Of a stretch of DNA of 64,000 nt, positions 6,858 to 39,622 are shown piece by piece. Below the pieces are notes generated by a model. It was not told where the DNA came from and searched no databases. It was given only the letters and a program-made list of their open reading frames with translations. Where the stretch lies: the NCBI GenBank assembly GCA_030144725.1, contig JASKMD010000006.1, positions 4,353,555 through 4,417,554 of the forward strand, written 5' to 3'. The DNA comes from Haematococcus lacustris. Its lineage: Eukaryota; Chlorophyta; Chlorophyceae; Chlamydomonadales; Haematococcaceae. Numbering within the stretch: the stretch's first letter is position 1; every line of letters starts with the position of its first letter. The position numbers and the translations under genes are program-made.

Positions 6858-6882
6858 CACTCACACAAATTAGCAGCGTCAC

Positions 6883-7150
6883 CTGCGCAGTATCCATGGT
6901 TGACTGCTCAGTATCCATAATTGACTGCGCAGTATCCATAAGAATACTGCTCTGTAGGCATGGTGATACTGCTCTGTAATTATTTGGATACTGCCCAGCA
7001 AGCATGTGAATACTGCTCTGTATTTATGTGGATACTGCTGTGTAGATATGTGGATACTGCTCTGTAGCCATTGCATACTGCGCATTATAGATGTGGATAC
7101 CGCTCTGTAATTATGTGAATACTGCTCTGTATATATGTGGATACTGCTAT
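6883..7150. repeat. Outer satellite array, left arm of CACTC element 1
   Basis: Degenerate units of about 20-22 bp contain GCGCAGTATCCATGG, CTGCTCTGTA and similar words. It corresponds in inverted orientation to the longer and cleaner array at 15150-15800. Confidence 0.8.
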
Positions 7151-7180
7151 GCATTCACAGGAATTAGCAGCGTCAACTGC
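7149..7180 (+). repeat. Internal copy of the CACTC element 1 terminus
   Basis: TTCACAGGAATTAGCAGCG followed by TCAACTGCGCAGTATCC repeats the terminal sequence of the element about 290 bp inside its left end. The junction data place the true end at 6858, so this is a duplicated terminus or a relic of an older end. Confidence 0.75.
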
Positions 7181-8447
7181 GCAGTATCCATGTAGCTACT
7201 GCTCAGTATCCATGTGGTTACTAGGCAGTATCCATGTGGCTACTGCTCAGTATCCATGTGGCTACTGCTCAGTATCCATGTGGCTACTACGCAGTATCCA
7301 TGTGGCTACTGCTCAGTATCCATGTGGCTACTAGGCAGTATCCATGTGGCTACTGCTCAGTATCCATGTGGCTACTAGGCAGTATCCATGTGGCTACTGC
7401 TCAGTATCCATGTGGCTACTAGGCAGTATCCATGTGGCTACTGCTCAGTATCCATGTAGCTACTGCTCAGTATCCATGTGGCTACTGCTCAGTATCCATG
7501 TGGCTACTGCTCAGTATCCATGTGGCTACTGCTCTGTATCCATGTGGCTAATGCTCAGTATCCATGTGGCTACTAGGCAGTATCCATGTGGCTACTGCTC
7601 AGTATCCATGTGGCTACTGCTCAGTATCTATGTGGCTTCTGCTCAGTATTCATGTGGCTACTGCTCAGTATCCATGTGGCTACTGCTCAGTATCCATGTG
7701 GCTACTGCTCAGTATCCATGTGGCTACTGCTCTGTATCCATGTGGCTACTGCTCAGTATCCATGTGGCTACTGCTCTGTATCCATGTGGCTTCTGCTCAG
7801 TATCCATGTAGCTACTGCTCAGTATCCATGTGGCTACTGCTCAGTATCCATGTGGCTACTGCTCAGTATCTATGTGGCTACTGCTCAGTATCCATGTAGC
7901 TACTGCTCAGTATCCATGTGGCTACTAGGCAGTATCCATGTGGCTACTGCTCAGTATCCATGTGGCTACTGCTCTGTATCCATGTGGCTACTGCTCAGTA
8001 TCCATGTAGCTACTGCTCAGTATCCATGTGGCTACTGCTCAGTATCCATGTGGCTACTGCTCAGTATCCATGTGGCTACTGCTCAGTATCCATGTGGCTA
8101 CTGCTCTGTATCTATGTGGTTACTGCTCTGTATCCATGTGGCTACTGCTCAGTATCCATGTGGCTACTGCTCAGTATTCATGTGGCTACTGCGCAGTATC
8201 CATGTGGCTACTTCTCTGTATCCATGTGGCTTCTGCTCAGTATCCATGTAGCTACTGCTCAGTATCCATGTGGCTACTGCTCAATATCCATGTGGTTACT
8301 GCTCAGTATCCATGTGGCTACTGCTCAGTATCCATGTGGCTACTGCTCAGTATCCATGTGGCTACTGAGCAGCAGCCATGTGGCTACTGCTCTGCAGCCA
8401 TGTTGCTACTGCCCTGCAGCTATGTGGCTACTGCGCAGTAGCTACTT
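7170..8447 (+). repeat. Inner 22-bp satellite array, left arm of CACTC element 1
   Basis: About 58 near-identical 22-bp units read GTGGCTACTGCTCAGTATCCAT, with variants CTCTG and TAGGCAG. The array is the inverted counterpart of 12996-14520. Open frames through it are produced by the repeat, not by genes. Confidence 0.95.
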
Positions 8448-8679
8448 GTCTCCTGCTTTCTTACAATTACAACGTTTGTACTACTGTCTATCTTCAGCCG
8501 ACAACATAGTGCTTTACAATATAGTTCTGACAACGTAGTGCTTTCAATTTAATGCGACTTTGGCTTGACTTGTTCTTTGGCCGTACTCAATTCATGTGTG
8601 GTGATAATGCCACTGCCATTTTCCATTGGCATGTGGCAGCTAGGTGTGCAAAGGGTGACTCCTGCGCTTCCTTTACTGG

Positions 8680-9740
8680 AAGAGTGGTGGGGTGGGGTGG
8701 GGTAGGTGGGGAGGCAAGGAGAGGGGAGGAGGGGGTACTAAGGGGAGGAAGGTGGTGGTGGGTGGTGGTGGCAGGATGGCGGGCGGGGCATGGCGGGAGG
8801 AGAGATGTGGAGAAGGGAGGGGAGGGTGATCGACTGGAAGGTGGTAGTACATGGTGGTAGCACCTGGTGGGTATGGGAAAGGAGAAGGGGGGTGGGGGGG
8901 AGGAAGAAGGTGGGTAAGTGTGACCGTAAAACCTGCAGCAAACACACGGCATGCCAGCGGTGAGGGGAGGCGATAAGGCTGGGTGATAAGGGCCATCAAC
9001 GAACAAGGAGGTAGCCACTTACCGCTCACTCCATGCTACTCCATGATGACTTCTTAATGGCTCTTACCATGCTCTTACTAACCTCCAAACGCCACTGCAT
9101 GTGATGATGATGCCCACTGCCATTGTCCAGGGTGGCTCATGCGCTTTAGATGGTGGTGGTGGGTATAGGAAAGGAAAAGGAGGATGGTGATGGTGGGTGG
9201 GGGGAAGGAGTACTAAGTGCGACCGTCAGACCTGCAGCAAACACATGGCAAAGCATAGGTGAGACTAGGTAATCAGGGCCACTAATCAGCAAGGGGGTCA
9301 GCACTCACCGCTCACTCCATGTTGCCCCTTGCTGCTCCTGTTTCTAGGGCCCTAGCACTAGCTAATCCCTAGCTACCGCTCATGGCTGTTGCTGGGAGAC
9401 AGGCAGGGAGGCGGGGTTATTGATAAAGAGGAGGCGGGAAGGAAAGGTGGAACCATTAGACCTGCGGCAAGCAAGGGGCGTGGTGACATTTTAGTCGGGA
9501 CTATTAGCTGCAACACACTATCAGGGAGCTCGCTACTCACCGGCTAGGAACAGGCAAGGTACTCACCGTGATGGGGCAGCAGGCAGGCAGTATATAGGCC
9601 CGACCTAACCTGATGCGCAGCTGGGAGAGGAGGGGCTGGGGAGGGGAAGGGCTGGGAGGGGAGGGGCTGGGCAATATCTGCGGCAAGGGTGGGACAATGA
9701 AGGAGAGTCAATGAAGGGGTGTCAATGAAGGAGGGCTAAA
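8680..9740. repeat. Purine-rich block with intron-shaped cassettes, left arm of CACTC element 1
   Basis: This is G-rich on the plus strand. On the minus strand it contains segments beginning GTAAGTGG or GTGAGTG and ending TGCTGCAGGT, near 9020-8937, 9310-9236 and 9550-9470. The piece 9205-9325 recurs almost identically in inverted orientation at 11000-11150. Confidence 0.7.
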
Positions 9741-10530
9741 TAATGAGACAATGGAGCAGATAATGGAGTGGGACAACGCCAATGATCAGCAAGGGGTAGC
9801 TGCGTGGCGCTGTGTGCACGCGGCTTGCACGCACGCGACTACACCTCGCAAGATTGCCAGGCCGCGTTGGCGGAGTATTGTTGTGGCTAGGTTGCTTGGC
9901 TACGTGGCTAGGTTGCGAGGCAGCTACGGGGCTGCCGGCTAGGAGCTTTAGGCCAGACTGCAGGGCTGCATTGTTGCGAAGCAGGCTGGCGGAGTTTTGC
10001 TGAGTGGCGAGTTGGTGTGTGGCTGGGTTGCGAGGCAGCTACGGGGTTACCTTGCTCGGAGCTTCAGGCTAGATTGCGGCTGCGTTGTTGGCCGGTTGAG
10101 AGGCTAGCTGCGAGGCTGGCTGCGAGGCTGGCTGGGACGTTGGTACCTAGCACACCTTTCTTTGCGCGCTTCAAAAACGGCATCATGGAGTTATGAATAA
10201 CTTTCCTGAGCCCAGAATCGCGCAGAAACAGCTAGCTCGCCGCAGTCTTGCCTGGGGCCACGGCCCATAGACCACACAGCTCGACTAGCCATCGAGCGCC
10301 TTGCGGCAAGGCATCCCCGCAGCTGCCCAGCCTTGCATCCCCGCAAAGAATCCAGGCACCACGCAAAGCATCCTTTCAGGATGATCTGGACTTGCAACCA
10401 CGCAACCTATGTCTCAGCCAACCTCGCAGCCACACAGATAGCTTCATAGCAAGCGCAGCCCCGCAGCGCTACGCAGCCACCCTCGCCGCCAGCGTCACCA
10501 ATGCAGCCATGCAACTATCTCTGCTTGTGC
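9741..10530. other. Core of CACTC element 1
   Basis: The core is rich in GCGAGGCTGGCTGCGAGG-type words on its left side and CGCAGCCA-type words on its right side, so the two halves are loosely inverted. I find no protein domain or RNA gene. The same kind of sequence forms the centre of element 2 (about 32700-33480). Confidence 0.5.
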
Positions 10531-12990
10531 AGGTGCGGCAGTGCCATGATGACGACCACCACCTCGTTACCTCCCCCTGCAGGTGGGTTGTGTTGCCTTG
10601 TACTAACAAGGTGGTCACATAGGCATAGAGCAGCAACATGTAAGGACACAGCAAGGAGCAAGGAAGAGGAGGAAGAGCAAGGGTCAAATGGTGAGTGGAT
10701 AGCCCCCTGCCAATAAGTGCCCTGAGTACAACTATTGATAGCATGGCTCTTTCTGCAGGTCTGGTGATTACACCAGGTCTGGTGGTCTACTTCTTCCCTC
10801 CCCTCTCAGGAGCAGCGGCTAGGAGGAGCAGCCAGGAGCGGCAGCCAGTGAACAAAGTCAAGAGTTGCCTCCCCTCCCCTCTTGCCTCTCCGTGAGCAGC
10901 GAGGAGGCAGCTAGCCCAAGGTGTGAGCAGGTAGGAGACCAGCTTCGGAGGTTACTACGAGCACGGTAAGAGCAAGGCAAGAGCCACCAATAAGTGATCA
11001 TGGAGCAGCATGGAGTGAGCGGTGAGTGCTGACCCCCTTGCTGATTAGTGGCCCTGGTTACCTAGTCTCACCTATGCTTTGCCATGTGTTTGCTGCAGGT
11101 TTGACGGTCGCACTTAGTACTCCTTCCCCCCACCCACCATTAACATCCTCCTTTTCCATTCCTATACCCACTCCCTCCCTCCCTCCCACCCTCCTCTCCA
11201 TCCCGGACCACCACCTCCACTACCGCCATGACTCCTTGACCGTCCCTTGTTCGCTGCTGTTGTGCACAGCTACTGGCATGGTGCCAGGAGCTAGCAGCCA
11301 GGCGCTTATACCCTTGGCAGGTGGTGCAGAGCCATATGGCAGGTGGTGCAGAGCCATATGGCAGGTGGTGCAGAGCCATATGGCAGGTAGTGCAGAGCCA
11401 TATGGCAGGTGGTGCAGAGCCAATACAAGGAGCCAGCAAGGCGCATTGCGCAGCACGGAGCACCAAGGCGTCAGCGGTGAGTGGTTTGCCCTTGCCTTAC
11501 ATTGTCCACTATCATCCAACCCAACCAATAGCGCGCACTGTGTTTGCTTCAGGTCCGATGGTAACTCTCAGTACCTCACCTTTCCCCCTCTCCCTTCTCT
11601 TCCCCCCATCCCCCACCCCACCCCACCACACCCTCCTCCTATCCTACTTCCCCCTTCCCCCTCGCCTCCTACCCCCTGACATCTCCATCTGCCCTTCCCT
11701 CCCTACCCTTCGTAGCAGCCAAGAGCAGATCTTCTCCTACCTACCTTGGCATCACTACCACCACCTTCCCACCTCTACACACACAAGCTCCCCCTTCCCC
11801 CTCTTCTTCCTGACCCTTTCACTCCCAGCTCTCTGCTAGTGAGTGGTTGCTGGTGGCTACCGGTAAGTGGCTAATACTCAGTGCCCAACCTGATCTCCCT
11901 ACCTCACGTGCACGCCCCTTGGCTGCAGGTCTGATTGGCACCTCTTCTCCCCCACCCCCTACAGAACCACCCCCTCCCAGTTTGTTGATACACTTCCCCC
12001 TTCCCCAGCCCATGTACAATTTATGACACGGTAAGACTGAGCAACCCCTTTGCCATGACAAGAGTCAGGAGGCTAAGCAACGCTCTGACGTATACCCTTG
12101 TCTCACTTGTGCTTAGGTTTGAGTGATAGCAGCAGCCAGGCAGCTTCTTCCCCACCCTCATCCTCATCCTCACCGTCACGTTGGTGGCTCTGGGAGGTGC
12201 AGCTGTGGAGCATACCTCCCCCATCCATTTATGTCCCTGACCCTCCCTTGCCCTCCCTCTTACTTGTCAGCCCCCCCTTCCCAACCCTCCTTGCCCCTTC
12301 CCCATCCCCAAGGCACAAAGAGGACCATGACACGGTAAGACTGAGCAACCCCTTCGCCATGACTCCTTGACCGTCCCTTGTGCGCTGCTGGTGTGCACAG
12401 CTACACCACACTCACCCTCTCCACACCTCTCCTCGCGCCATTCCCCGCCCACCCTCCCGCCACCACCACCCACCACCACCTCTACCCCCCTTCCCTCCTC
12501 CACTCACCCCTCTTCCCCTTGCCTCCCCACCTACCCCACCCCACCCCACCCCTCTGCCCCGGGGGTTGCCCTTGAGACCAGTGCAGGTTGCCCCCCTCCC
12601 TCCCTCCCTCCCTCCCACCCTCCTCTACCCTACCCTACCCTACCGAATTCTACCCTACCCTAACCTACACTACACACCTTCCCGTCTGCCTCCCCTCCTG
12701 CCTCCCCACCCCGCCATGTCTCCCAAACCTCCTCCCCACTTGCCTCTCCTCTTGCCTCCCCTACCGCCATCCCTCACCTGCCGGCTCGCGCCAAACCGAG
12801 TTTAAGGCTGGGCGATAGCTGTCTGTCTGCTGCCCCCCGCTGGTGAGTGCCTCGACATCACCCACACTGTGCTAGAATGCCACGCTTGGTCAATTGCCAT
12901 GTCCCAGCAGCCAGCAAGGAGCATAAGGCAAGCGTCAGCCACATCCCTAGCAGCAGCTAGGAACAAGGAATGACATGGAGCAACAAGACT
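10531..12990. repeat. Pyrimidine-rich block with intron-shaped cassettes, right arm of CACTC element 1
   Basis: This is C/T-rich on the plus strand. Cassettes with splice-like ends lie at 11022-11098, 11477-11552 and 11863-11928 (GTGAGTG or GTAAGTGG to TGCAG or TTCAG). At 11321-11425 there is a 20-bp tandem repeat of GCAGAGCCATATGGCAGGTG. At 12595-12670 there are TCCC and TACCC repeats. The cassette at 11863-11928 and its surroundings match element 2 at 31187-31262, inverted. Confidence 0.7.
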
Positions 12991-12995
12991 CATAA

Positions 12996-14520
12996 GGCAA
13001 GTAGCCACATGGCAACAGAGCAGTAGCAACATGGATACTGAGCAGTAGCCACATGGATACAGAGCAGTAGCCACATGGATACAGAGCAGTAGCCACATGG
13101 ATACAGAGCAGTAGCCACATAGATACAGAGCAGTAGCCACATGGATACAGAGCAGTAGCCACATGGCAACAGAGCAGTAGCCACATAGATACAGAGCAGT
13201 AGCCACATGGATACAGAGCAGTAGCCACATAGATACAGAGCAGTAGCCACATGGCAACAGAGCAGTAGCCACATGGATACAGAGCAGTAGCCACATGGAT
13301 ACAGAGCAGTAGCCACATGGATACTGAGCAGTAGCCACATGGATACAGAGCAGTAGCCACATGGATACAGAGCAGTAGCCACATGGCAACAGAGCAGTAG
13401 CCACATGGATACAGAGCAGTAGCCACATGGATACAGAGCAGTAGCCACATGGATACAGAGCAGTAGCCACATGGATACAGAGCAGTAGCCACATGGATAC
13501 AGAGCAGTAGCCACATGGATACAGAGCAGTAGCCACATGGATACAGAGCAGTAGCCACATGGATACAGAGCAGTAGCCACATGAATACTGAGCAGTAGCC
13601 ACATGGATACAGAGCAGTAGCCACATGGATACAGAGCAGTAGCCACATAGATACAGAGCAGTAGCCACATGGCAACAGAGCAGTAGCCACATGGATACAG
13701 AGCAGTAGCCACATGGATACAGAGCAGTAGCCACATGGATACAGAGCAGTAGCCACATGGATACAGAGCAGTAGCCACATGGCAACAGAGCAGTAGCCAC
13801 ATGGCAACAGAGCAGTAGCCACATGGATACAGAGCAGTAGCCACATGGATACAGAGCAGTAGCCACATGAATACTGAGCAGTAGCCACATGGATACAGAG
13901 CAGTAGCCACATGGATACAGAGCAGTAGCCACATAGATACAGAGCAGTAGCCACATGGCAACAGAGCAGTAGCCACATGGATACAGAGCAGTAGCCACAT
14001 GGATACAGAGCAGTAGCCACATGGATACAGAGCAGTAGCCACATGGATACAGAGCAGTAGCCACATGGCAACAGAGCAGTAGCCACATGGCAACAGAGCA
14101 GTAGCCACATGGATACAGAGCAGTAGCCACATGGCAACAGAGCAGTAGCCACATGGATAAAGAGCAGTAGCCACATGGATACTGAGCAGTAGCCACATGG
14201 ATACATAGCAGTAGCCACATGGATACTGAGCAGTAGCCACATGGCAACAGAGCAGTAGCCACATGGATACAGAGCAGTAGCCACATGGATACAGAGCAGT
14301 AGCCACATGGATACAGAGCAGTAGCCACATAGATACAGAGCAGTAGCCACATAAATACTGAGCAGTAGCCACATGGATACAGAGCAGTAGCCACATGGAT
14401 ATAGAGCAGTAGCCACATGGATACAGAGCAGCAGCCACATGGTAACACAGCGGTAGCCACATGGCAACAGAGCAGTAGCCACATGGCTGAAGAGCAGTAG
14501 CCACATGGCTGCAGAGCAGA
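12996..14520 (-). repeat. Inner 22-bp satellite array, right arm of CACTC element 1
   Basis: About 69 units of 22 bp read AGCCACATGGATACAGAGCAGT on the plus strand. The reverse complement differs from the left-arm unit essentially only at CTCTG versus CTCAG. The right arm is thus a homogenised inverted partner of 7170-8447. The three long minus-strand open frames across it (up to 577 codons) are artefacts of the repeat. Confidence 0.95.
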
Positions 14521-14864
14521 AGCCACTTCACTCACTTACACTTAGGGCCAATGCAAGTGTGCGTCATGTTGTTGTTGCTGCTCATGTTGCCTTCATGGTC
14601 ATGATGTCGTTGCCTCTCATATGTTGTCGTTGTTCATGTTATTGATGCTAGTAATTGAGCCTGATGACGTGTGTAAGAGCCACACAGTGAAAGAGCCCAG
14701 CCAACAGTAATAGTAAGTATCCCATCATCTGCACCCAGGCAACATGGGTTAAGGTTTACACGGACTTCATCAAGGGCAGGAATAGGCTTGCGGCATCAAC
14801 AGGAGGTTAACCATCATCATCAGCAATAACCGCTGTCACACCAACCCACACAACACACAGTAGA

Positions 14865-15020
14865 GAAAAGAAGGAAGAAGAAGAAGAAGAAGACTACTCC
14901 GGTATTCACCGGCGTGCATTAAGTGAGAGCTATAGCCTGCTCCCACCATCAAGCCAAAGAAGTGGCGTCCCCCCTACCCTCACCCCCCTTTGGTAGCCCT
15001 GAGTCTGTAGCTTGTCTTAG
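14865..15020 (-). repeat. 5'-truncated LINE 3'-end copy inside CACTC element 1
   Basis: A (GAA)n tract at 14873-14892 is followed by ACTACTCCGGTATTCACCGG and CCTGCTCCCACC, then GCCCTGAGTCTGTAGCT. This matches the last codons, 3' untranslated hairpin and tail of the LINE at 17157-17310. The tail points left, so the LINE sense strand is minus. Confidence 0.85.
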
Positions 15021-15149
15021 AAAAGAAGGAAGTTGTGCAACAGAGTTGCGCCAGAACATGGTACACACGCGCAATAACCACAATGGCGTTGCAGGGACAC
15101 AATAGCAAATGATGTCGTCACCTGAGCAGTCTCCTTAGTGGACAACGAG

Positions 15150-15800
15150 GTATCCATAGACGACAGCGCAGTATCCATGGTTGACTGAGCAATAATCATG
15201 GTTAACTGAGCAGTATATATGGTTGACTGAGCAGTATCCATGGTTGACTGAACAATATCCATGGTTGACTGAGCAGTATCCATGGTTGACTGAGCAGTAA
15301 TCATGGTTGACTGAGCAGTACATATGGTTAACTGAGCAGTATCCATGGTTGACTGAGCAGTATCCATGGTTGACTGAGCAGTAATCATGGTTGACTGAGC
15401 AGTAATTATGGTTGACTGAGCAGTATCCATGGTTGACTGAGCAGTATCCATGGTTGACTGAGCAGTATCCATGGTTGACTGAGCAGTATCCATGGTTGAC
15501 TGAGCAGTATCCATGGTTGACTGAGCAGTATCCATGGTTGACTGAGCAGTATCCATGGTTGACTGAGCAGTATCCATGGTTGACTGAGCAGTATCCATGG
15601 TTGACTGAGCAGTATCCATGGTTGACTGAGCAGTATCCATGGTTGACTGAGCGGTATCCATGGTTGACTGAGCAGTATCCATGGTTGACTGAGCTGTATC
15701 CATGGTTGACTGAGCATTATCTATGGATTACAGCGCAGTATCCATGATAAGCAGCGCAGTATCATAAAAAAACAGCGCAGTTACCATGGATACTGCGCAG
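15150..15800. repeat. Outer 21-bp satellite array, right arm of CACTC element 1
   Basis: About 29 units of 21 bp read GACTGAGCAGTATCCATGGTT. The unit contains the palindrome CCATGG. The outermost part changes to units with the perfect palindrome TACTGCGCAGTA. Confidence 0.95.
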
Positions 15801-15825
15801 TTATCGCTGCTAATTCCTGTGAGTG

Positions 15826-16528
15826 CTTGTCTAGATCATATTGATCCACAGTGCTGGCAAAGGCCTCATCTGCTGCATACGCTCATACGGTCATATTGAC
15901 AGCGTGCAAAGGGTGCACAGGTAAAGGAGGTGGGGGCAAGGGCTGTTCCAAAACCAGCTGAGGCTGTGGCTCCTGCTGCGGCTGCTGAAAGGCAAGCTGA
16001 GCAGGCTGTACCACACCAGCTTCCTCCCCCTCCAAAAGGCGCTTCCTGCTCCTGGTCATAACCATGACAGGATTGCTGACAGGAGCATCAGGTATGCGTG
16101 ACAGAGGGTCAGCAGGGTTAGTATCACCGGGTAGATACTCAATGGTAAAATCATACCGGGAGAGAAACTCCAACCACCTGGTTTGGCGCCTTGACAAGAC
16201 CTTTTGTGTTTTTAGAGCTACTAAGGGTTTGTGGTCCGTATACAACGTGAAGGGAACACCCTCCAGGTAGCAACGCCATTCTTTACATGCAGTAATAATT
16301 GCAAGTAGTTCCTGTTCACCAGTGGTATAGTTTTTTCAGCTGGAATGAGCTTCTTGCTTAAATAAGCCAGTGGATAACCCTCTTGCATAAGAACTGCACC
16401 TACGCCTTGCAAAGAGGCGTCACAGTAAACCTGAAATGGTTTAGTAATATCTGGGATTTTGAGTAGAGGTACTCTAGAAATGGCATGCTTAATTGAAATC
16501 AGCACCTGCTTTACCAGTCAGGTCAGTG
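15826..16528 (-). pseudogene. pol: Gypsy RNase H and connection region, frameshifted
   Basis: This is the middle of pol, between the two large insertions. The RT-associated RNase H-like domain is visible (PFQVYCDASLQGVGAVLMQE, AYLSKKLIPAEK). Near 16330 one A is missing from an A-run and the frame shifts; it resumes as YTDHKPLVALK and WLEFLSRYDFTIEYLPG up to ADPLSRIPD. A Gln/Pro-rich linker follows. Near 16490 a short deletion disturbs the region after GKAGADF. A TGA near 15873 interrupts the last part before the junction with the first CACTC element at 15825. Confidence 0.9.
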
Positions 16529-16662
16529 CACTCGCAGAAAAGTTCATGAGAAAAGTTGAATTTTTTGACAAAGTGGCTTGATAGATTGTATTTTTGGGCG
16601 GTTCTAAGAATGGGGGTGTAAACCTAAAATCTAGGAAAAATCGGGCTGAGGAGATACGAGAA

Positions 16663-17155
16663 AACCAGTACTGGTCCACCCCCAACCAGTACTGGTTGCC
16701 TCCCAACCGTTCCTGGTTTACCCCCAACCAGTACTGGTTTATTCCCAACCAGTACTGGATTATTCCCAACCAGTACTGGTTTATTCCCAACCAGCACTGG
16801 TTTACCCCCAACCAGTACTGGTTTATTCCCAACCAGTACTGGTTTATTCCCAACCAGTACTGGTTTATTCCCAAGCCGTACTGGTTTATTCCCAACCAGT
16901 ACTGGTTTCCCCCCAACCAGTACTGGTATATTCCCAACCAGTACTGGTTTATTCCCAACCAGTACTGGTTTATTTCTAACCAGTACTGGTTTATTCCCAA
17001 CCAGTACTGGTTTCCCCCCAACCAGTACTGGTATATTCCCAACCAGTACTGGTTTATTCCCAACCAGTACTGGTTTATTTCTAACCAGTACTGGTTTATT
17101 CCCAACCAGTACTGGTTTATTCCCAACCAGTACTGGTTTATTCCCAACCAGTAAG
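16663..17155. repeat. Outer satellite array, left arm of CACTC element 2, left of LINE
   Basis: About 23 units of 21 bp, AACCAGTACTGGTTTATTCCC, each contain the perfect 14-bp palindrome AACCAGTACTGGTT. The array is cut by the LINE after CCAGTA and resumes at about 28521. Confidence 0.95.
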
Positions 17156-17164
17156 AAGAAGAAG

Positions 17165-17250: not shown

Positions 17251-17266
17251 GATGTGAAGAAACCCT

Positions 17267-29067: not shown

Positions 29068-29069
29068 AC

Positions 29070-29114
<45 letters not shown>

Positions 29115-29280: not shown

Positions 29281-29560
29281 ATACTGAGCTACAGATGTTG
29301 CAAGGTATACAAAGTACCATGAGGACAACATGCTATAACCACATGCATATGCTATGACCCACTCCTTGTTATCACAAAGTTACATAGTCCAAAGTGCCGC
29401 ACAATCATCAAGCTATGTAGCGCCAACTAACACCCTCCACAATCTCATGTGTTGGTTGCCCTATGTCAATGCCCTCTTCCAGCGACCTTGATGTAATGAA
29501 GGTACTCGTCCATGCTCCAACCCCTGCAAAGTGACACAGTGTCATCTTACATACAATGCA
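29281..29560. repeat. Non-satellite inverted segment of CACTC element 2, left arm
   Basis: Read on the minus strand, 29550-29480 gives TGTGTCACTTTGCAGGGG then GGACGAGTACCTTCATTACA, matching 38728-38790 on the plus strand. The similarity continues outward, weaker, towards 29350 and 38900 (GCTACATAGC, GTGATAACAA). It links the two arms independently of the satellites and contains an acceptor-like TTTGCAG. Confidence 0.8.
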
Positions 29561-29599
29561 CTACTGTACCCAATGAATGCAATGCATGACACACATTAG

Positions 29600-30420
29600 A
29601 CACCTGGCTGGCTGGCTGTGACCAGTGCTGGCTGGCTGTGACCAGTACTGGCTGGCTGGCTGTGACCAGTACGGCTGGCTGGCTGTGACCAGTACTGGCT
29701 GGCTGGCTGTGACCAGTACTGGCTCGCTGTGACCAGTACTGGCTGGCTGGCTGTGACCAGTACTGGCTGACTGGCTGTGACCAGTACTGGCTGGCTGGCT
29801 GTGACCAGTACTGGCTGGCTGTGACCAGTACTGGCTAGCTGTGACCAGTACTGGCTGGCTGGCTGGGTGACCAGTACTGGCTGGCTAGCTGTGACCAGTA
29901 CTGGCTGGCTATGACCAGTACTGGCTGGCTTGCTGTGACCAGTACTGGCTGGCTGTGACCAGTACTGGCTAGCTGTGACCAGTACTGGCTGGCTGTAACC
30001 AGTACTGGCTGGCTGGTTGTGACCAGTACTGGCTGGCTGGCTGGGTGACCAGTACTGGCTGGCTGTGACCAGTACTGGCTGGCTGGCTGTGACCAGTACT
30101 GGCTGGCTGGCTGTGACCAGTACTGGCTGGCTGTGACCAGTACTGGCTGGCTGGCTGGGTGACCAGTACTGGCTGGCTGTGACCAGTACTGGCTGGCTGG
30201 CTGTGACCAGTACTGGCTGGCTGTCACCAGTACTGGCTGGCTGGCTGTGACCAGTACTGGCTGGCTATGACCAGTACTGGCTGGCTGTGACCAGTACTGG
30301 CTGGCTGGCTGTGACCAGTACTGGCTGGCTGGCTGTGGCTGGCTGTGGCTGGCTGGCTGTGGCTGGCTGTGGCTGGCTGTGGCTGGCTGTGGCTGTGACT
30401 GGCTGGCTGTGGCTGGCAAC
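29600..30420 (-). repeat. Inner satellite array, left arm of CACTC element 2
   Basis: About 35-40 units of 20-24 bp read GTGACCAGTACTGGCTGGCTG, with a variable number of GGCT repeats. It is the inverted counterpart of 36026-38724 but three times shorter. Open frames here (for example 29835-30953) are artefacts. Confidence 0.95.
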
Positions 30421-30640
30421 CAGCGCTGGTTTGCAACTAGCACCGGCTGGCAACCAGCACTGGTTTGCAACCAGCACTGGCTGGCAACCAGCACTGGTTT
30501 GCAACCAGCACTGGCTGGCAACCAGCACTGGCTGGCAAGCAGCACTGGCTGGCAACCAGCACTGGCTGTCAACCAGCACTGGCTGGCAACCAGCACTGGT
30601 TTGCAACAAGCACTGGTTTGCAACCAGCACTGGTTTGCAA
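30421..30640. repeat. CAACCAGCACTGGCTGG array
   Basis: Degenerate 18-20-bp units carry CCAGCACTGG instead of CCAGTACTGG, alternating between GCTGGCAA and TTTGCAA spacers. No clear counterpart is seen in the right arm. Confidence 0.85.
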
Positions 30641-30910
30641 CAAGCACTGCAGCAGCAGGGGGGCAGGGGGGTGGCAACAGCAGCAGGGGGGCAGGGGGGC
30701 GGCAGCAGCAGGGGGGCAGGGGGGCTGCAACAGCAGCAGGGCGCCAGGGGGACTGCAACAGCAGCAGGGGGGCAGTGGGACTGCAGCAGCAGGGGCAGCA
30801 GCAGGGGGGGCAGGGGGCAGCAGCAGGGGGGCAGTAGAAGCAGCAGCAGGGGGGCGGCAGCAACAGAACAGCAGCAGGGGGGCAGTAGAAGCAGCAGCAG
30901 GGGTACCGGT
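30641..30910. repeat. CAGCAG/GGGGGCAG repeat block, left arm of CACTC element 2
   Basis: Units are of the type AGCAGCAGGGGGGCAGGGGG. Their inverted partner is the CTGCTGCCCCCC block at 35738-36018. Confidence 0.85.
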
Positions 30911-32660
30911 GGGGTGGTGTGGGGAGGGGTGATTGGGGTGGAGTGGCACTCACCTAGCAATGTGGGTAGAGGGGCTACGCCATGGTACACGTTTTGTGCT
31001 CTCACTGGAAAAGAGGGGATAGGGGAACAGAGGGAGGAGATAGTGGAAGGGGGTATGGGGAGTGGCTGCCTCCGGACTGCTCGTACAGTGCGCATAGGGG
31101 GGCATAGGGGATAGGGGTAGGGGGGCGGGGGGAAGGGGGGGGCGGGGTTGATGAATTGTTTATGGGGGAAAGAGAAGGGGAGCCCATCAGACCTGCAGCC
31201 AAGGGGCGTGCACGTGAGGTAGGGAGATCAGGTTGGGCACTGTGTGCTGGCCACTTACCGGTAGCCACCAGCAACCACTCACTAGCAGGGAGCAGGGAGC
31301 GAAAGGGTCAGGAAGAAGGGGGAAGGGGGAGCTTGTGTGTGGAGGGGGGTGGGAAGGGGGTGGTAGTGATGCCACAGTGCCAAGGTATGTTGGTGAAGGT
31401 ATGCTCTTGGCTGATGGGAGAGTAGGGAAGGGATGGCAGGTGGCTGCGATGTCAGGGGGTAGAAGGCGAGGGGGAGGGGGGAAGTAGGAAAGGAGGGTAG
31501 AGTAGGAGGGTGGGGTGGGGTGGGGTGGGGGATGGGGGGAAGGGGTGGAGAGATAGGGGTGGTTGAGGTGGGGGCTGCGATGCCACGTCAAATGAAGGGT
31601 GCGAGAGGGGAAGGGGGTTGAGAAGCATGGAAGGGAGTGGGAGGGAGAGGGGGAAGGGAGGGGGTGGTGGTGGTGGTGGGAAGAGGGTGGGTGGGGGAGA
31701 GGTGACGGGGAGGGGGGAAGCGGGGGTTGGGGAGAAGTAGAAGTGGGATTGGTGGGATAGGGTAGAGAAGGGTGAAGGAGGCAGGGGGCAGGAGTATAGG
31801 CGTCAGACCTGCAGCAAGCAAGGAGCGTACTTACAGTGAGGCTAGCAAAACATATTAGGAAGCTAGCTGTCGCGTAGTGCATGACGGAGGCTAGGTTCAG
31901 GAGCGGGGCCACTCACCGCTTGCTCCCTAATCCTCCATGCTCCTCCATGCTTCATCCTCGTTGGCTCTTACCTTGGTCTTACCTTTGTAGTGGGACGGGC
32001 TTCAATGGAGAGGGTACGGGGTGATGAAAGCGGGGTGATGAAAGCGGGGGAGAGGGGGATGGGGGGAGGAAGGGGAGTGAAAGGGGAAGGGGAGTGAAAG
32101 GGGAGGAGGCAGCAGGAGTGGGGGTGGGGGTGGGGCGGGGACAGGGAAGTGCGATGAATGATTTGGAGGGGGTGGTTGTATAGGGAGGGGAGTTGCCCAT
32201 CAGACCTGCAGGCAAGTGAGGTATGGAGATCAGGCTGGGCACCGGGTGTTAGCCACACACTTTTAGCCACTCACTCATTACCTGTAGCCACCAATAACCA
32301 CCCACCAGTAGGAAGGAGGAAGGAGCAAAGAGGAAGACAAAAGGGAGATGAGGGGGACGAGGGGGTGTGTTTGGAAGTGGTGGTGGGTTGCGCCATGGTA
32401 GGTTGGTGAAGGGTGGGTGGGCTTGCTCTTGGCTACTGGGTAGGGTCGGGGGCTTCGATGTCAAGGGTGGGGTAGGAGGGTGGGTGTTGTGTGTGCCCGT
32501 CAGACCTGTAGCAAACACGGGGCATGCTAGCGGTTAGGCATAGTAATGAGGGACACTGACAGGCTGGGTGCTAGCCACTCACCGCTAACGTTGTGCTGCT
32601 CCGTGTTGCACAATATTGTCTTCTTTTTTGCCCGGTCTTACCTTGCAGAGGGAGTGGGGC
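30911..32660. repeat. Purine-rich block with intron-shaped cassettes, left arm of CACTC element 2
   Basis: This is G/A-rich on the plus strand over about 1.7 kb. On the minus strand it carries cassettes from GTAAGTGG/GTGAGTGG to TGCAGGTCTGA near 31262-31192, 31920-31810, 32285-32205 and 32585-32505. The first matches element 1 at 11863-11928. Open frames in this block are long but compositional (Pro/Ser on the minus strand). Confidence 0.7.
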
Positions 32661-33530
32661 TAAAATGAAAATCATCATGTAAACTGTAGGCTGCGACTGC
32701 GTGGCGCTGCATGCGAGACAGGCCGCGAGTTACTTTGTAATGCGTGGCTGCGGAAATGTCGGCGAGTTGAGAAATGGCTGCAGCAGGTGAGATCCGAGCT
32801 GCAATCTGCGTCTGAGACTCGCATCTGGAAGTTATCTGCAAGGCCTTGCACACGGCGCATGCACACTTGCACGCTTTGCGAATGCGCACACACCACACTT
32901 GCGCACTACCCGCGGCTTGCCGAAAACGGCACGAACGAGATGGCATGCAAGAGAGACATATGAAATAGTGAACTCCTTGCACTAAACACGACGTAGCCAA
33001 ACAGCGAAGCATCTCATCAACTCCACAGCTAAACCGCAGCCGTAGTTAGCGGCAGCTACAAATCGAGCCTTGAGGATAAGCCTAGCAAGTCAGCCTCGCA
33101 GCCTTGCAGCCGCGTCTTGCGGCCCCCATCTAGGTAGCCACACGGCCACGAAGCCAACACTCATCTTGCAGGCAACATCGCAGCAGCAGTTGAAGCATCG
33201 CGACGCAGCTAGCAACTCGCTTAACAGGTGTCCTCGCAGCCAACTCAGCAGCCAGCTCCGCAGCCAGTACCTCGCAGCCAACTCACAGCCAACTTCGCAG
33301 CCTGTACCTCGCAGCCAGTACCTCGCAACGAGTCTCGCATGGAGTCCAGCCACGCAACTTCGCAGCCAACTCCGCAACTACACGGGACAGTACCTCGCAA
33401 CGAGTCTCTTATGGAGTCCAGCCACGCAGCGCCAGCCACGCAACGCTAACTTCGTGGTCTACTTGCAAGTCCTTGCAAAGGTAAGAGCATGTTAGCATGA
33501 AGCAACATGGAGGAGCACGGAGCATAAGAG
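32661..33530. other. Core of CACTC element 2
   Basis: The core contains CGCAGCCA-type words in its right half. No recognisable protein or RNA gene is present. It is similar in character to the core of element 1. Confidence 0.45.
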
Positions 33531-35710
33531 GTGAGTAGCCAGCCCCACGCCTTTCGGTGGCTCTTATTACCAAGCCTCATTGTGAGCATACCCCATGTTT
33601 GCTGCAGGTCTTAAGGATACACTTGGGACCTCCCTCCCTCTCCTCCAGATCACCACGATCGCCTTCCCTCCCTCCCTTCCTCCCTCCCTCTACAGGTCCC
33701 CTTACCCCCCTACCTGTACTGCGGGCCTACCTTGTCTCCCTCCCTACCCCTTCCCTACCCACCCTACCCCACCCTCACCTCCACCCTTCCCCTTCCCCCT
33801 CACCCCCTCCCTACCCCTTCCCCCTCACCTCCATCCTGACATCACAGCCCCCTCCCTTACCTTGGTCCGACGCCTATGCTCCCGCCCGTGCCTCCTTCCC
33901 CCTTCCCTACCCACCCTACCCCACCCTCTTTCCACCAACACCACCACAAGTAAGTCCACGGTGACAGCTCACAAGGAACTAGCATTGCGTACAATGGAGC
34001 ACCAAGGCGTGAGCGGTGAGTGGCCAGTACCCCGCCTTTCAGTGTCCAACAACCCATACTAACTGCTAGCACGCCCCGTGTGTGCTGCAGGTTTGACAGT
34101 TACACCAAGTCACCTTCCCCCTTACCCCAACATCCCTGACCCCGCCCTTACCCCGACATCCCACCCCCCGCCCCCCTCCCTCCCTCCCCTCCTCCCTCCC
34201 TTCCTCCCCTCCTCCCTCCCTCCCTCCCTCCCTCCCTCCCTCCCTCCCTCCCTCCCTCCCTCCCTCCCTCCCTCCCTCCCTCCCTCCCTCCCTCCCTCCC
34301 TCCCTCCCTCCCTCCCTCCCTCCCTCCCTCCCTCCCTCCCTCCCTCCCTCCCTCCCTCCCTCCCCTCCCTCCCTCCCTCCCTCCCTCCCCTTGGCTGCAG
34401 GTCTGATGGGCACCGCCGCTCCCCTTTCCTTTCCCCCTACACAACCACCCCTACCCAACTCATCCTCCCCCGCTCCCTCCCCTGCCCCCACCCCCGCCCA
34501 TGCCCTCACCCTATACAGATCCCTTCCCCCTCCCTCGAACCTTCCCTTGAGCCTTCCCCATGGACCTCCCCTTCCCTTTCCTCCCCTTCCTCCTCTACCT
34601 CCCCTCCCCCGCTACTCCATCATCCCGTCCTTCTCTGGGTCCTTTTACCCCCTCCAGCAACAGCAGCAGTCATCTTCCCCCTCCGCCTCCTCACCCTCAC
34701 CATCTACACGCATATACACCCCATTCCAGCAAAAGGTGAGTGTAGTTATGTGGCACCCTGTACCTACACTAACCGCTAGCATGCCCCTTGTCCCGCTGCA
34801 GGGTTGATCGTCACACCCTTCCCCTTTTCCTCCCATTTCCCACGCCCACCACCATCGCCAAGCTGGTCGTCCCTCCACATCCACCTCTCCCCACCCCCAC
34901 TTTCCCCCTCCCTGTTACCTCTCCCTTGACATCCCAGCAGCCAAGTGATAGCCCACCCCATCCACCCTCTTGCCACTACCACCACCACCACCACCCCCTC
35001 CCTTCCCCCTCTCCCTCTCTCCCATGCTTGCCAAGCCTACCCTTCCCCTCTCCCACCCTTTGATTGACGTGGCATCGCAGCCCCCACCTCACCCCACCTT
35101 CCCTTCCCTACACACTACTACACACCCCATCACAGCCCCAACCCACTGGCGCATGGGATATGTTGCCAGGGGTGAGCAGGTAGGAGGCCAGGAGGACCAC
35201 AAAGGTAAGGCCACGGTGATAGCTAACACAGTGCCCAGCCTGGACACCCTACATCACGTGCACGCCCCTTGATTGCAGGTCTGATGGGCACCTCCCCTCC
35301 ACTTTCCTTTCCCCTACACAACCACCCCCTCCCAATTCATCCTCCCCCGCCCCCGCTCCCTCCCCCGCCCCCACCCCCGCCTTCACTCCTCCACTCCCAC
35401 CCCCTTCCCTCCACCTCCTTTCCCACCTCCACTCCCCACTCCACCCAACCCAACCCATGCCCCCAACCCAACCCAGCCCCGCCCAGCCCAACCCGGTTGA
35501 GCCTCCCGCCTCCCGCCTCCCTGCCTATCGCCTCCCCGCCTCCCGCCTCCCTGCCTCCCGCCTCCCGCCTCCCTGCGTATCGCCTCCCCGCCTCCCGCCT
35601 CCCTGCCTCCCGCCTCCCGCCTTCCACATCTACCCTCCCTCCCCGCTTTCACTCCTCCACTCCCACCCCCTTTCCAGCAGCAGTCATCAAGCAGCAAAAG
35701 GTAGGTAGGT
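33531..35710. repeat. Pyrimidine-rich block with intron-shaped cassettes, right arm of CACTC element 2
   Basis: This is C/T-rich on the plus strand. Cassettes lie at about 33531-33608, 34017-34090, 34736-34800 and 35205-35278, each from GTGAGT or GTAAGG to TGCAG, mostly followed by GTYTGA. At 34165-34395 a CCCT/TCCC tract of about 230 bp occurs. At 35500-35620 CTCCCGCCTCCCTGC repeats occur. Confidence 0.7.
34165..34395. repeat. (TCCC)n homopurine-homopyrimidine tract
   Basis: Almost perfect CCCT tetranucleotides run for about 230 bp. Such mirror-symmetric purine/pyrimidine tracts can adopt triplex structure. Confidence 0.95.
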
Positions 35711-35737
35711 GCGATAGTGCCCCTACTATCTGCTGCT

Positions 35738-36018
35738 GCAGCCCCCCTGCCCCCCTGCTGCTGCTGCTGCTGCTGCAGCCCCCCTCCCCCCCTGCTGCTG
35801 CTGCTGCTGCCCCCCTACTGCTGCGGCTGCCCCCCTACTGCTGCTGCTGCCCCACTGCCCCCCTACTGCTGCTGCTGCTGCTGCCCCCCTACTGCTGCTG
35901 CTGCCCCCCTACTGCTGCTGCTGCTGCTGAACCCTGGTTGCGCCTACTATCTGCTGTTGCAGCCCCCCTGCCCCCATGCTGCTGCTGCTCCCCTGCCCCC
36001 CTGCCCCCCTGCTGCTGC
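35738..36018. repeat. CTGCTG/CCCCCC repeat block, right arm of CACTC element 2
   Basis: CTGCTGCTGCTGCCCCCCTA-type units form the inverted partner of 30641-30910. Confidence 0.85.
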
Positions 36019-36025
36019 TGCGTGT

Positions 36026-38724
36026 CACAGCCAGCCAGTACTGGTCACAGCCAGCCAGCCAGTACTGGTCAGCCAGCCAGTACTGGTCAGCCAGCCTGTA
36101 CTGGTCACAGCCAGCCAGCCAGTACTGGTCACCCAGCCAGTACTGGTCACAGCCAGCCAGTACTGGTCACAGCCAGCCAGTACTGGTCACAGCCAGCCAG
36201 CCAGTACTGGTCAGCCAGCCAGTACTGGTCGATCCAGCCAGCCAGTACTGATCAGCCAGCCAGTACTGGTCAGCCAGCCAGTACTGGTCACAGCAGGCCA
36301 GCCAGTACTGGTCAGCCAGCCAGTACTGGTCACAGCCAGCCAGCCAGTACTGGTCAGCCAGCCAGTACTGGTCACAGCCAGCCAGTACTGGTCACAGCCA
36401 GCCAGCCAGTACTGGTCAGCCAGCCAGTAATGGTCGATCCAGCCAGTACTGGTCACAGCCAGCCAGCCAGTACTGGTCAGCCAGCCTGTACTGGTCACAG
36501 CCAGCCAGCCAGTACTGGTCACCCAGCCAGTACTGGTCACAGCCAGCCAGTACTGGTCAGCCAGCCAGTACTGGTCACAGCCAGCCAGCCAGTACTGGTC
36601 AGCCAGCCAGTACTGGTCACAGCCAGCCAGTACTGGTCACAGCCAGCCAGCCAGTACTGGTCAGCCAGCCAGTACTGGTCGATCCAGCCAGTACTGGTCA
36701 CAGCCAGCCAGCCAGTACTGGTCACCCAGCCAGTACTGGTCACAGCCAGCCAGCCAGTACTGGTCAGCCAGCCAGTACTGGTCACAGTCAGCCAGCCAGT
36801 ACTGGTCAGCCAGCCAGTACTGGTCACAGCCAGCCAGCCAGTACTGGTCACAGCCAGCCAGCCAGTACTGGTCAGCCAGCCAGTACTGGTCACCCAGCCA
36901 GTACTGGTCACAGCCAGCCAGCCAGTACTGGTCAGCCAGCCAGTACTGGTCACAGCCAGCCAGCCAGTACTGGTCACAGCCAGCCAGTACTGGTCACAGC
37001 CAGCCAGCCAGTACTGGTCAGCCAGCCAGTAATGGTCGATCCAGCCAGTACTGGTCACAGCCAGCCAGCCAGTACTGGTCAGCCAGCCTGTACTGGTCAC
37101 AGCCAGCCAGCCAGTACTGGTCACCCAGCCAGTACTGGTCACAGCCAGCCAGTACTGGTCACAGCCAGCCAGTACTGGTCACAGCCAGCCAGCCAGTACT
37201 GGTCAGCCAGCCAGTACTGGTCGATCCAGCCAGCCAGTACTGATCAGCCAGCCAGTACTGGTCAGCCAGCCAGTACTGGTCACAGCAGGCCAGCCAGTAC
37301 TGGTCAGCCAGCCAGTACTGGTCACAGCCAGCCAGCCAGTACTGGTCAGCCAGCCAGTACTGGTCACAGCCAGCCAGTACTGGTCACAGCCAGCCAGCCA
37401 GTACTGGTCAGCCAGCCAGTACTGGTCGATCCAGCCAGTACTGGTCACAGCCAGCCAGCCAGTACTGGTCACCCAGCCAGTACTGGTCACAGCCAGCCAG
37501 CCAGTACTGGTCAGCCAGCCAGTACTGGTCACAGTCAGCCAGCCAGTACTGGTCAGCCAGCCAGTACTAGTCACAGCCAGCCAGCCAGTACTGGTCACAG
37601 CCAGCCAGCCAGTACTGGTCAGCCAGCCAGTACTGGTCACCCAGCCAGTACTGGTCACAGCCAGCCAGCCAGTACTGGTCAGCCAGCCAGTACTGGTCAC
37701 AGCCAGCCAGCCAGTACTGGTCAGCCAGCCAGTACTGGTCGATCCAGCCAGTACTGGTCACAGCCAGCCAGCCAGTACTGGTCACCCAGCCAGTACTGGT
37801 CACAGCCAGCCAGCCAGTACTGGTCAGCCAGCCAGTACTGGTCACAGCCAGCCAGCCAGTACTGGTCACCCAGCCAGTACTGGTCACAGCCAGCCAGTAC
37901 TGGTCAGCCAGCCAGTACTGGTCACAGCCAGCCAGCCAGTACTGGTCAGCCAGCCAGTACTGGTCACAGCCAGCCAGCCAGTACTGGTCACAGCCAGCCA
38001 GTACTGGTCACAGCCAGCCAGCCAGTACTGGTCAGCCAGCTAGTACTGGTCACAGCCAGCCAGTACTGGTCACAGCCAGCCAGTACTGGTCACAGCCAGC
38101 CAGCCAGTACTGGTCACAGCCAGCCAGTACTGGTCGATCCAGCCAGTACTGGTCACAGCCAGCCAGTACTGGTCACAGCCAGCCAGTGCTTAGTCACAGC
38201 CAGCCAGTACTGGTCACAGCCAGCCAGTACTGGTCACAGCCAGCCAGCCAGTACTGGTCACAGCCAGCCAGTACTGGTCACAGCCAGCCAGTACTGGTCA
38301 CAGCCAGCCAGTACTGGTCAGCCAGCCAGTACTGGTCAGCCAGGCAGTACTGGTCACAGCCAGCCAGTACTGGTCACAGCCATCCAGTACTGGTCACAGC
38401 CATCCAGTACTGGTCACAGCCAGCCAGCCAGTACTGGTCACAGCCAGCCAGTACTGGTCACAGCCAGCCAGTACTGGTCACAGCCAGCCAGTACTGGTCA
38501 CAGCCAGCCAGTGCTTAGTCACAGCCAGCCAGTACTGGTCACAGCCAGCCAGTACTGGTCACAGCCAGCCAGTACTGGTCACAGCCAGCCAGCCAGTACT
38601 GGTCAGCCAGCCAGTACTGGTCACAGCCAGCCAGCCAGTACTAGTCAGCCAGCCAGTACTGGTCACAGCCAGCCAGCCAGTACTGGTCACAGCCAGCCAG
38701 TACTGGTCACAGCCAGCCAGCCAG
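36026..38724 (+). repeat. Inner satellite array, right arm of CACTC element 2
   Basis: About 120 units of 16-24 bp read CAGCCAGCCAGTACTGGTCA, with rare GATCCAGC variants. Long higher-order blocks are duplicated (36060-36430 is very similar to 37080-37440), showing recent segmental amplification. Frames of up to 592 codons across it are artefacts. Confidence 0.95.
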
Positions 38725-39000
38725 ACTCTGTGTCACTTTGCAGGGGCTGGAGCTTGGACGACTACCTTCATTACAATGAGGTCGCCTTGCATTACAAGGG
38801 AATGAGATAGAGGACGGATGGAGTGTCTTGGTTGATGCTACATAGCATGCGAAGCAGTGTACTATGTAATGTTAGTGACAGTGATAACAAACACACGTAC
38901 ATAGTAATCCCAATGACATTGCTTAGTGAGTGATAGCACATGCAATGTGTTGTAGCGTGTTGCCCTCTTGTTGTAGTCGGTGCCTATACAGTACCTAACC
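38725..39000. repeat. Non-satellite inverted segment of CACTC element 2, right arm
   Basis: This is the counterpart of 29281-29560 in inverted orientation. It is strongest at 38728-38790 (CTGTGTCACTTTGCAGGGG, TACCTTCATTACAA) and weaker to about 38900. Confidence 0.8.
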
Positions 39001-39357
39001 AAGGCTCCCAGCCCTGACCTCAGTCCTCAGCCCTAACCCTTCAGCTATCATCCAATTGTCTGTAAGCATACTCGCTTCATCCACAGATGTTAACCCATTA
39101 CAAGCGCACATGATAGCGCACATCGACTAGACATCGCACGTCAGAAAGACTTGGCATTATGGAGAGTTGTTAACCCATCACAAGCGCACATTGTAGCGCA
39201 CATCGACTGGACATCGCACATCGCACATCGACGTAGACAGCCGTTGGGGAGCTTCCAGCGAAGCGCTAAGACCAGCGATGCAAGTAGTACTATTGGGAAG
39301 GCTTGAATGTGATACGCGGAAACTTTGATATCTCCATGCCCTAACTCTGCCAAAGAT

Positions 39358-39462
39358 TACAACCAGTACTGGAGGGCAACCAGTACTGGATGCCAACCAG
39401 TACTGGTTGAGGTCCAGTACTGGTTAGCAACCAGTACTGGACCTCAACCAGTACTGGTTGCC
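39358..39462. repeat. Short outer array, right arm of CACTC element 2
   Basis: Five to six AACCAGTACTGG units are all that is present in this arm, opposite the long outer array of the left arm (16663-17155 plus 28521-29046). Confidence 0.85.
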
Positions 39463-39622
39463 CTCACAGAAGTGCATGATAGTCAAACGATCAAATCTCG
39501 CCAGCCACTTGGAGTTGATTTTTTTTTCAAGTGCGTTGGCTTGCCAATGGGAAACTGAAGACTTCCATCAAAAAAAAAAGTACCCTTAGGTGGCACTTAT
39601 AGTGCGATCTTTTCTACGAGTG

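Follow-up and report, generated by a model that had tools for sequence, protein, structure and literature searches.

Satellite-armed elements with CACTC ends and a common core of intron-like cassettes, found as two inserts in a gypsy retrotransposon of Haematococcus lacustris

The window analyzed here, a stretch of 64,000 nucleotides of the Haematococcus lacustris genome (C373:4353555-4417554 in the 307.9-Mb assembly of 597 contigs that was searched), contains a Ty3/gypsy long terminal repeat (LTR) retrotransposon (5238..43455, minus strand) that carries two large inserts with CACTC...GAGTG ends. The retrotransposon was recognized by its LTR pair (5238-5444 and 43249-43455, 99.0% identical across 207 bp) and by Pfam domains, and contains a gag-like open reading frame (ORF), protease, reverse transcriptase (RT), integrase and chromodomain (RVP_2, RVT_1, Integrase_H2C2, rve and Chromo). 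Insert 1, a family A element of 8968 bp (6858..15825), has the ends CACTCACACAAATTAGCAGCG ... CGCTGCTAATTCCTGTGAGTG and is flanked on either side by CT (6856-6857 and 15826-15827). Insert 2, a family B element (16529..39622), has the ends CACTCGCAGAAAAGTTC ... GATCTTTTCTACGAGTG and is flanked on either side by TG (16527-16528 and 39623-39624). Once each insert is removed together with one 2-bp target site duplication (TSD), the pol frame is unbroken through both joints. The gypsy copy is otherwise damaged by one stop and by frame changes, the first of which lies a few codons beyond the insert 2 joint.

Inward from its ends, each insert consists of a short terminal inverted repeat (TIR), an outer array of tandem repeats, an inner array and a core, followed by the same parts in reverse order. 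The units of insert 1 are 21 and 22 bp long and based on CAGTATCCAT. Its left TIR (6858..6878, plus strand) agrees at 19 of 21 bases with the right terminal sequence (15805..15825, minus strand). The left outer arrays (6883..7148) start with 21-bp units on the plus strand, up to 6941, and continue with inverted 22-bp units; they are followed by an internal near-copy of the TIR, CATTCACAGGAATTAGCAGCG (7152..7172, plus strand), which has a counterpart in the copies of this element on contigs C90 and C166. The left inner array (7176..8467, plus strand) holds 57.5 copies of the 22-bp unit ACTGCTCAGTATCCATGTGGCT, the core extends over 8468..12994, and the right inner array (13000..14526, minus strand) holds 69.4 copies of the same 22-bp family in inverted orientation. 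An inter-array spacer (14527..15149), in which a truncated LINE-like 3' end (~14868-15015) lies between copies of AGAAAAGAAGGAAG, separates this array from the right outer array (15150..15781, plus strand; 28.4 copies of a 21-bp unit). The first-pass annotation described outer and inner arrays as inverted between the arms. This holds for the inner arrays, but the outer arrays of insert 1 form no simple mirror, as 6883-6941 and 15150-15781 run in the same direction and 6944-7148 is inverted.

The units of insert 2 are based on CCAGTACTGG and are 21 bp, mostly 18 to 24 bp, and 17 bp long. Its left outer array (16663..17153, plus strand; 21-bp unit AACCAGTACTGGTTTATTCCC) is broken by a LINE-type retrotransposon (17155..28516, minus strand) that sits between two parts of one 21-bp array and enlarges the insert; a tandem-repeat scan found the array continuing past it (28523..29041, plus strand). 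The left inner arrays (29604..30649, plus strand) are built of units of mostly 20 and 24 bp and then of 17 bp, and are followed by the core (30904..35700). The right inner array (36024..38720, minus strand) is inverted relative to 29604-30417, and the spacings in these two arrays are mostly 18, 20 and 24 bp. The right arm ends with an outer array of 17-bp units (39360..39460) and a subterminal segment with the TIR (39521..39622, minus strand), which is 96% identical to a 731-bp family B element.

Both kinds of ends recur across the genome. The TIR of insert 1 (TIR A) gave 366 matches and that of insert 2 (TIR B) 520, while the reversed patterns used as controls gave 0 and 3, respectively. Positions are known for 100 of the 366 TIR-A places and for 100 of the 520 TIR-B places, and the proximity tests described below rest on these. 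We fetched 15 neighbouring convergent TIR-A pairs and, for family B, two elements and eight loci around ends. Duplications of 2 bp were present in 19 of the 23 terminus pairs examined, insert 1, insert 2 and the C100 copy included (binomial P ~1e-19 at a chance of 1/16 each). Identical 2-bp flanks accompanied 11 of the 12 long TIR-A pairs, the remaining one, C74_5.6, looking composite; the three short TIR-A pairs among the 15 fetched, which are probably inner arms, had no TSD. All four further family B pairs had TSDs (TC, GA, GG and CT). A blind pairing of CACT...AGTG ends in the window by TIR and 2-bp duplication returned 12 pairs, as compared with 0-2 in 10 shuffles; two of them were the inserts, five were repeats within or between the cores, and five lay elsewhere in the window. 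Clearly, the ends and duplications that the first-pass annotation reported for both inserts are real, and the family of elements with a common core and different satellites that it supposed is far larger than two copies. At L036, L037 and L038, a TIR-array-TIR unit of 1.06-1.5 kb lacks TSDs and has the flank GTACAAAC in common with the other two; each is probably a single arm of a larger element, whose inner boundary is formed by a second TIR.

Searched for exactly, the 22-bp unit of insert 1 has 88 matches in the genome, which lie at only four places, in the window and on C90, C100 and C166, and all four are copies of the insert 1 element. Over 4527 bp, the core of the C166 copy shares 99.76% identity with that of insert 1. 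Both ends are present in the C100 copy (7936 bp, TSD GC), whose array lengths differ from those of insert 1 (70.5/53.6/32.8 units versus 57.5/69.4/28.4); the C90 copy is interrupted by a 5-kb gap. Since the copies at the four loci share arrays and core, the whole unit moves. Moreover, the C100 and C166 copies both contain a match to the insert 1 spacer, its LINE 3' fragment included, which shows arrays, core and passenger to have moved as one. A 3704-bp element of a third family, C (CACTCACGATAAACAAGG), with arrays of ATCTGTACAGAT and TSD CA, lies nested within the C166 copy. Exact-match scans of viral_contigs for the satellites gave 0 and 0 matches.

The two cores in the window are related. 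The short match between them noted in the first-pass annotation (11863-11928 with 31262-31192) proved to be real and larger than described, extending over 374 bp at 84.8% identity (11599-11949 with 31542-31172, E 8e-116). The insert 2 core is homologous to six family A cores (71-73.5% over 1.4-1.6 kb), and family A cores are 91-95% identical in the parts that align (971-2935 bp). The purine and pyrimidine blocks described earlier are likewise present, the plus-strand purine fractions of the left and right halves being 0.64 and 0.34 in the core of insert 1, and 0.69 and 0.26 in that of insert 2. A 110-bp cassette of the insert 1 core was found at 93-100% identity at all 40 genome places scored out of 971 candidates. 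Its identity was 99-100% in insert 1 and in the C166 and C100 copies, 95% in insert 2, and 93-95% between A and B carriers as a whole. Nine further places (93-94%) lie on contigs with listed TIR-B positions, and all nine are within 12 kb of a TIR B, whereas random placement gives a mean of 0.36; the sizes of contigs C49 and C83 used for this and the other random-placement mean given below were taken from the sizes in a protein listing and could be in error. One cassette match lies in the family C element. As elements of families A, B and C, with their differing arms and ends, carry core matches, the core is a common property of such families. Conversely, no cassette match was found in two family B elements, 731 and 4987 bp long, and arms can therefore exist without the core.

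These small elements bear on the proposal of the first-pass annotation that satellites are acquired or replaced while a chassis persists. The 731-bp element (TSD GG) consists of ends and an array of 23.9 x 21 bp, and other family B elements, of 2442 and 4987 bp, are also mostly ends and arrays. The comparisons do not establish that proposal; the small elements suggest that ends and arrays are the mobile chassis and that the intron-bearing core is a shared passenger. The sequences compared are consistent both with an exchange of the core between families and with its inheritance while the arms changed faster, and fast concerted divergence of arrays on a common descent would fit as well.

The core's cassettes, most of them 66-90 bases long, resemble small spliceosomal introns (GGTRAG ... 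YAG|G) and diverge from its centre. In insert 1, three lie on the minus strand of the left half (8895..9568, donors near 9540, 9308 and 9022) and five on the plus strand of the right half (10651..12157, donors near 10691, 11022, 11477, 11863 and 12031). In insert 2, there are four on the minus strand at the left (31164..32618) and five on the plus strand at the right (33491..35317), one of each group being partial. A cassette profile, which was seeded with window copies picked for GT...AG, gave 81 matches in 14 of the 17 elements searched, 14 of these matches being the window's own. With the best split chosen freely for each element, 80 of the 81 fit outward divergence, minus strand on the left and plus strand on the right. 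GT was present in 70/70 aligned donors (56/56 outside the window) and AG in 77/77 aligned acceptors (63/63 outside it), with 11 of the 81 matches not reaching the donor and 4 not reaching the acceptor. The mean majority frequency was 0.97 in donor columns and 0.995 in acceptor columns versus 0.685 within the intron. We interpret the core as a putative pair of outward, spliced, apparently non-coding transcription units.

The core might instead be a decaying protein-coding accessory gene, TNPA-like and made of many small exons, or a captured block of host exons and introns. We regard this as possible but doubtful. Such an arrangement would have a precedent in maize TNPA, which according to PMC2613891 is assembled from many exons, and a similar peptide (of the EHQGVSGLTV type) can be read around some cassette junctions. 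However, only 18 of 91 indels were multiples of 3, counted over seven comparisons of cores with insert 1 that share events between them, and the codon-position bias of substitutions was not steady, these cores being 91-95% identical in their aligned parts. Moreover, the cassettes are read differently in the longest frame of each window core, and the spliced frames are pyrimidine-rich and of low complexity. Because of the few multiple-of-3 indels and the unsteady codon-position bias, we rejected protein coding in the cores and regard their pyrimidine-rich exons as free of visible coding constraint.

The arrays are regular and specific to their elements. The motif CAGTATCCAT, with up to one mismatch, has 125 matches in the window, all in insert 1, and exact CCAGTACTGG has 195, all in insert 2. 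In insert 1, 51 of 52 motif spacings of the left inner array are 22 bp, 29 of 42 in the right inner array are 22 bp and the other 13 are 44 or 66 bp, and 16 of 20 in the right outer array are 21 bp, the rest being multiples of the unit. Insert 2 has a similarly regular left outer array, with 16 of 19 spacings at 21 bp and the others at multiples of the unit. The claim that the satellites of the two inserts are unrelated stands for A versus B as compared, as the outer unit of B could not be aligned to either of two A units, its identities of 0.48 and 0.43 lying below the 95% level of shuffles (0.52). Within family A it does not stand: elements with the same TIR have related but distinct units, whose best circular identity to the insert 1 unit is 0.82, 0.73 or 0.68 (95% level of 1000 shuffles 0.55, maximum 0.68). 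The family C motif is a perfect 12-bp palindrome and stood outside the shuffle test of symmetry. A general model of palindromic sites with compensatory changes between families (ACTGCGCAGT, CCAGCGCTGG, CCAGTACTGG, ATCTGTACAGAT) was dropped, because dyad symmetry, which a site bound by a dimer should have, was significant for the B outer unit alone among 19 A and B units (shuffle P 0.004).

Arrays of this kind may be overgrown subterminal binding sites for a transposase or for a TNPA-like partner. A binding role fits them because they are subterminal, have one motif per family with near-helical spacing, and are kept in the 731-bp element. They start at or near the ends, and a short family-specific motif repeated every ~21-22 bp, as in the outer arrays and those of family A, would correspond to two helical turns. 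Unequal exchange or gene conversion may extend and homogenize them, and we propose that satellite and binding protein would consequently drift together by family. On the other hand, the arrays may be neutral, as if slippage and unequal exchange simply amplified any short sequence between amplification-prone inverted arms, with no binding role; we hold this to be a possible but unlikely explanation. Array sizes do vary among copies, as between insert 1 and the C100 copy, the simple repeats CCCT, CAG and telomere-like ACCCTA are also amplified inside elements, and the A units have no significant dyad symmetry. However, the 21-bp array starts at position 135 in five of the eight family B arms read and in the 731-bp element, the period of 21-22 bp recurs in families A and B, and the 731-bp element contains almost nothing beyond ends and arrays, which argues against neutral growth.

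A candidate for the enzyme that would move these elements was found in family A. In the cassette-free element C2:1221645-1232738 (TSD AT), ORFs match functionally uncharacterized proteins of H. lacustris, and residues 148-662 of P0128, a predicted protein of 693 aa, align to the element piecewise. Regarding this element as a candidate autonomous one proved too strong, as only those residues of P0128 were matched. Scoring of 64 out of 1450 candidates gave at least 143 genome matches to P0128. Of the 13 loci of family-A-type transposase (at least 85% identity) whose contigs have listed TIR-A positions, 10 have a TIR A within 10 kb, compared with a random mean of 0.31. The order of motifs in P0128-type proteins would resemble that of tnp2 transposases. 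With regard to the autonomous partner that the first-pass annotation suggested looking for, a relative with the same ends and transposase-like exons exists, but an EnSpm-type transposase was not confirmed. A transposase of a second clade was considered as the family B enzyme and rejected, since none of its three loci on contigs with listed TIR-B positions is near a listed TIR B (distances of 81-753 kb); no enzyme could be assigned to family B. A divergent transposase (~28% identity to P0128) lies beside the family A copy on C100 (L012 ~6246-9107, G000:C100:251246-254107), with a zinc-finger-like ORF near it. The element C2:1221645-1232738 also contains opposed telomere-like arrays, (GTTAGG)30 and (ACCCTA)48, at L029 ~4732-4913 and 7271-7555. 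Another cassette-free family A element has a 298-aa RGG-rich ORF (L039:1158-2051, minus strand), and a stretch beside this ORF matches the spacer adjoining the right inner array of insert 1.

We consider it likely that the inserts are large cut-and-paste DNA transposons of CACTA-like type, with short CACTC TIRs and 2-bp TSDs, whose arrays are putative binding sites and whose core is a passenger. The pair in the window would be non-autonomous and would depend on a transposase supplied in trans by relatives sharing their ends, and the core would be a passenger module of two outward spliced non-coding transcription units. Several points weigh against this model, in addition to the limits of the cassette profile and of the indel counts, the poor dyad symmetry of most units and the distant second-clade loci given above. 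The ends of family B are free of array units across the first 134 bp or more. Transposase exons between the ends were seen in a single fetched element, where they cover only part of P0128, and 3 of the 13 loci of family-A-type transposase are not near any listed TIR A. P0128 itself has no Pfam or NCBIfam match, its relatives giving only weak low-complexity matches below the cut-off, and a genome search with PF02992 was empty, yet its 14 control genomes were equally empty.

Termini of CACTA/EnSpm elements may also be CACTG, and some members of the group make 2-bp TSDs. The elements described here resemble CACTA/EnSpm elements (Spm/En, Tam1, Tgmt), as portrayed in PMC2613891 and PMC8978399, in their CACT ends, short TIRs, putatively spliced internal genes and non-autonomous relatives, and in having direct and inverted subterminal repeats with a motif that varies by family, even though these are far larger here. 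In the account of PMC2613891, a conserved transposase presumably works on the TIR, TNPA-like proteins bind the fast-diverging subterminal repeats, and the repeats and their binding proteins are proposed to co-diversify. In contrast to the CACTA/EnSpm elements, the fifth terminal base is C, CACTC being the terminus of the two inserts and of all three families (A, B and C); the TSD is 2 bp instead of the 3 bp given in PMC4158355 and PMC2613891; the subterminal repeats reach kilobases instead of the several hundred nucleotides given in PMC8978399; a common core of intron-like cassettes is present; and tnp2 was not matched in Pfam. Because the fifth end base and the length of the duplication differ and the transposase is unplaced, we do not file these elements as CACTA members. 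Judged from their structure, they would work like a CACTA-type element with foldback arms.

The arms raise the question of whether these are foldback elements of another superfamily, such as the P-like Galileo type or the MULE type, rather than CACTA-like ones, which we consider quite improbable. Sea urchin TU elements also count among the foldback elements, and, to our knowledge, short CACTC TIRs are not typical of this group. Long inverted tandem-repeat arms around a variable middle are foldback anatomy, and no transposase was placed here by Pfam. The foldback elements covered in PMC4079207 (Tetris, Galileo, FB) are similar to ours in their long inverted arms with tandem repeats and variable middle, in being non-autonomous and modular, and in their link to satellites; the same source states that Galileo arms hold extra transposase binding sites and that a like role was proposed for the Tetris repeats. 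However, as given there, the unit of Tetris is ~220 bp, its TSD is 8-10 bp and its own transposase was not found, as opposed to the 2-bp TSDs of 19/23 pairs here; in addition, the consulted part of PMC4079207 does not mention for foldbacks one middle common to families with different arms. That the arrays are independent genomic satellites, hit or adjoined by elements and only appearing to form one unit with them, is very improbable: the LINE within an array shows that nesting occurs, but ends and duplications recur (TSDs in 19/23 TIR pairs), the window motifs are restricted to their own inserts, and the exact insert 1 unit, for which the genome-wide search was made, is confined to four copies of its element, contradicting that explanation for insert 1. 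Within that scope, the outcome named by the first-pass annotation as refuting it (arrays as independent satellites, with ends and duplications that do not recur) was not observed.

The elements can further be compared with other satellite-bearing and intron-bearing ones. Jozin of Chenopodium also has a satellite array within a CACTA-like element, but PMC8978399 describes a single array of 171-bp units near its 3' end, in contrast to the mirrored arms of short units found here. Introners, according to PMC9860276, have splice signals and, in some cases, TIRs and TSDs, but they create single introns with a median of 30-654 nucleotides, whereas each half of the core described here has several internal splice-like sites, directed outward on opposite strands with exon-like stretches between them, in elements of several kilobases. 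Searches confined to open-licence PMC papers turned up no description of such an element. The elements join CACTA-like subterminal repeats at kilobase scale to foldback anatomy, with hundreds of ends comparable in one genome, and within family A alone, cores that are 91-95% identical in aligned parts come with several satellites that are related yet distinct. The co-diversification of repeats and binding proteins (PMC2613891) thereby becomes testable within one species. The elements also represent a concrete source of satellite DNA and an example of a transposon core that retains splice signals but shows no coding constraint. More tentatively, one may speculate that at least three end-and-satellite families of a single genome both share and exchange a conserved spliced non-coding core, that the kilobase arrays of each co-diversify with its own DNA-binding protein, so that family satellites are bred and dispersed, and that the core behaves as a selfish module of non-coding RNA under selection for its splicing.

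The LINE in the outer array of insert 2 was identified by Pfam and encodes a Josephin-like domain, RT and RNase H; its match to an APE-like endonuclease is weak, below the Pfam cut-off. The best protein match of its 1674-aa ORF is H. lacustris QJQ45_005113 (96% identity over 96%), and the second-best, also from H. lacustris, is 93% identical. Its 5' region (26534-28516) contains ~17 in-frame copies of a 114-bp repeat. Further LINE-like 3'-end fragments, at 2218-2313 and 14872-15015, have purine-rich tails and show a relationship to the LINE's own 3' end at 17155. An ORF at 3915-4892 (minus strand), whose C-terminal motif presumably resembles that of Fanzor/TnpB proteins, was considered as a member of this group and rejected, as it had no Pfam, NCBIfam or PDB match. 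Finally, two genes for U1 spliceosomal RNA (56283-56443 and 62402-62562, minus strand) lie within a duplicated segment with 91% identity between its copies (55740-56519 and 61879-62638).

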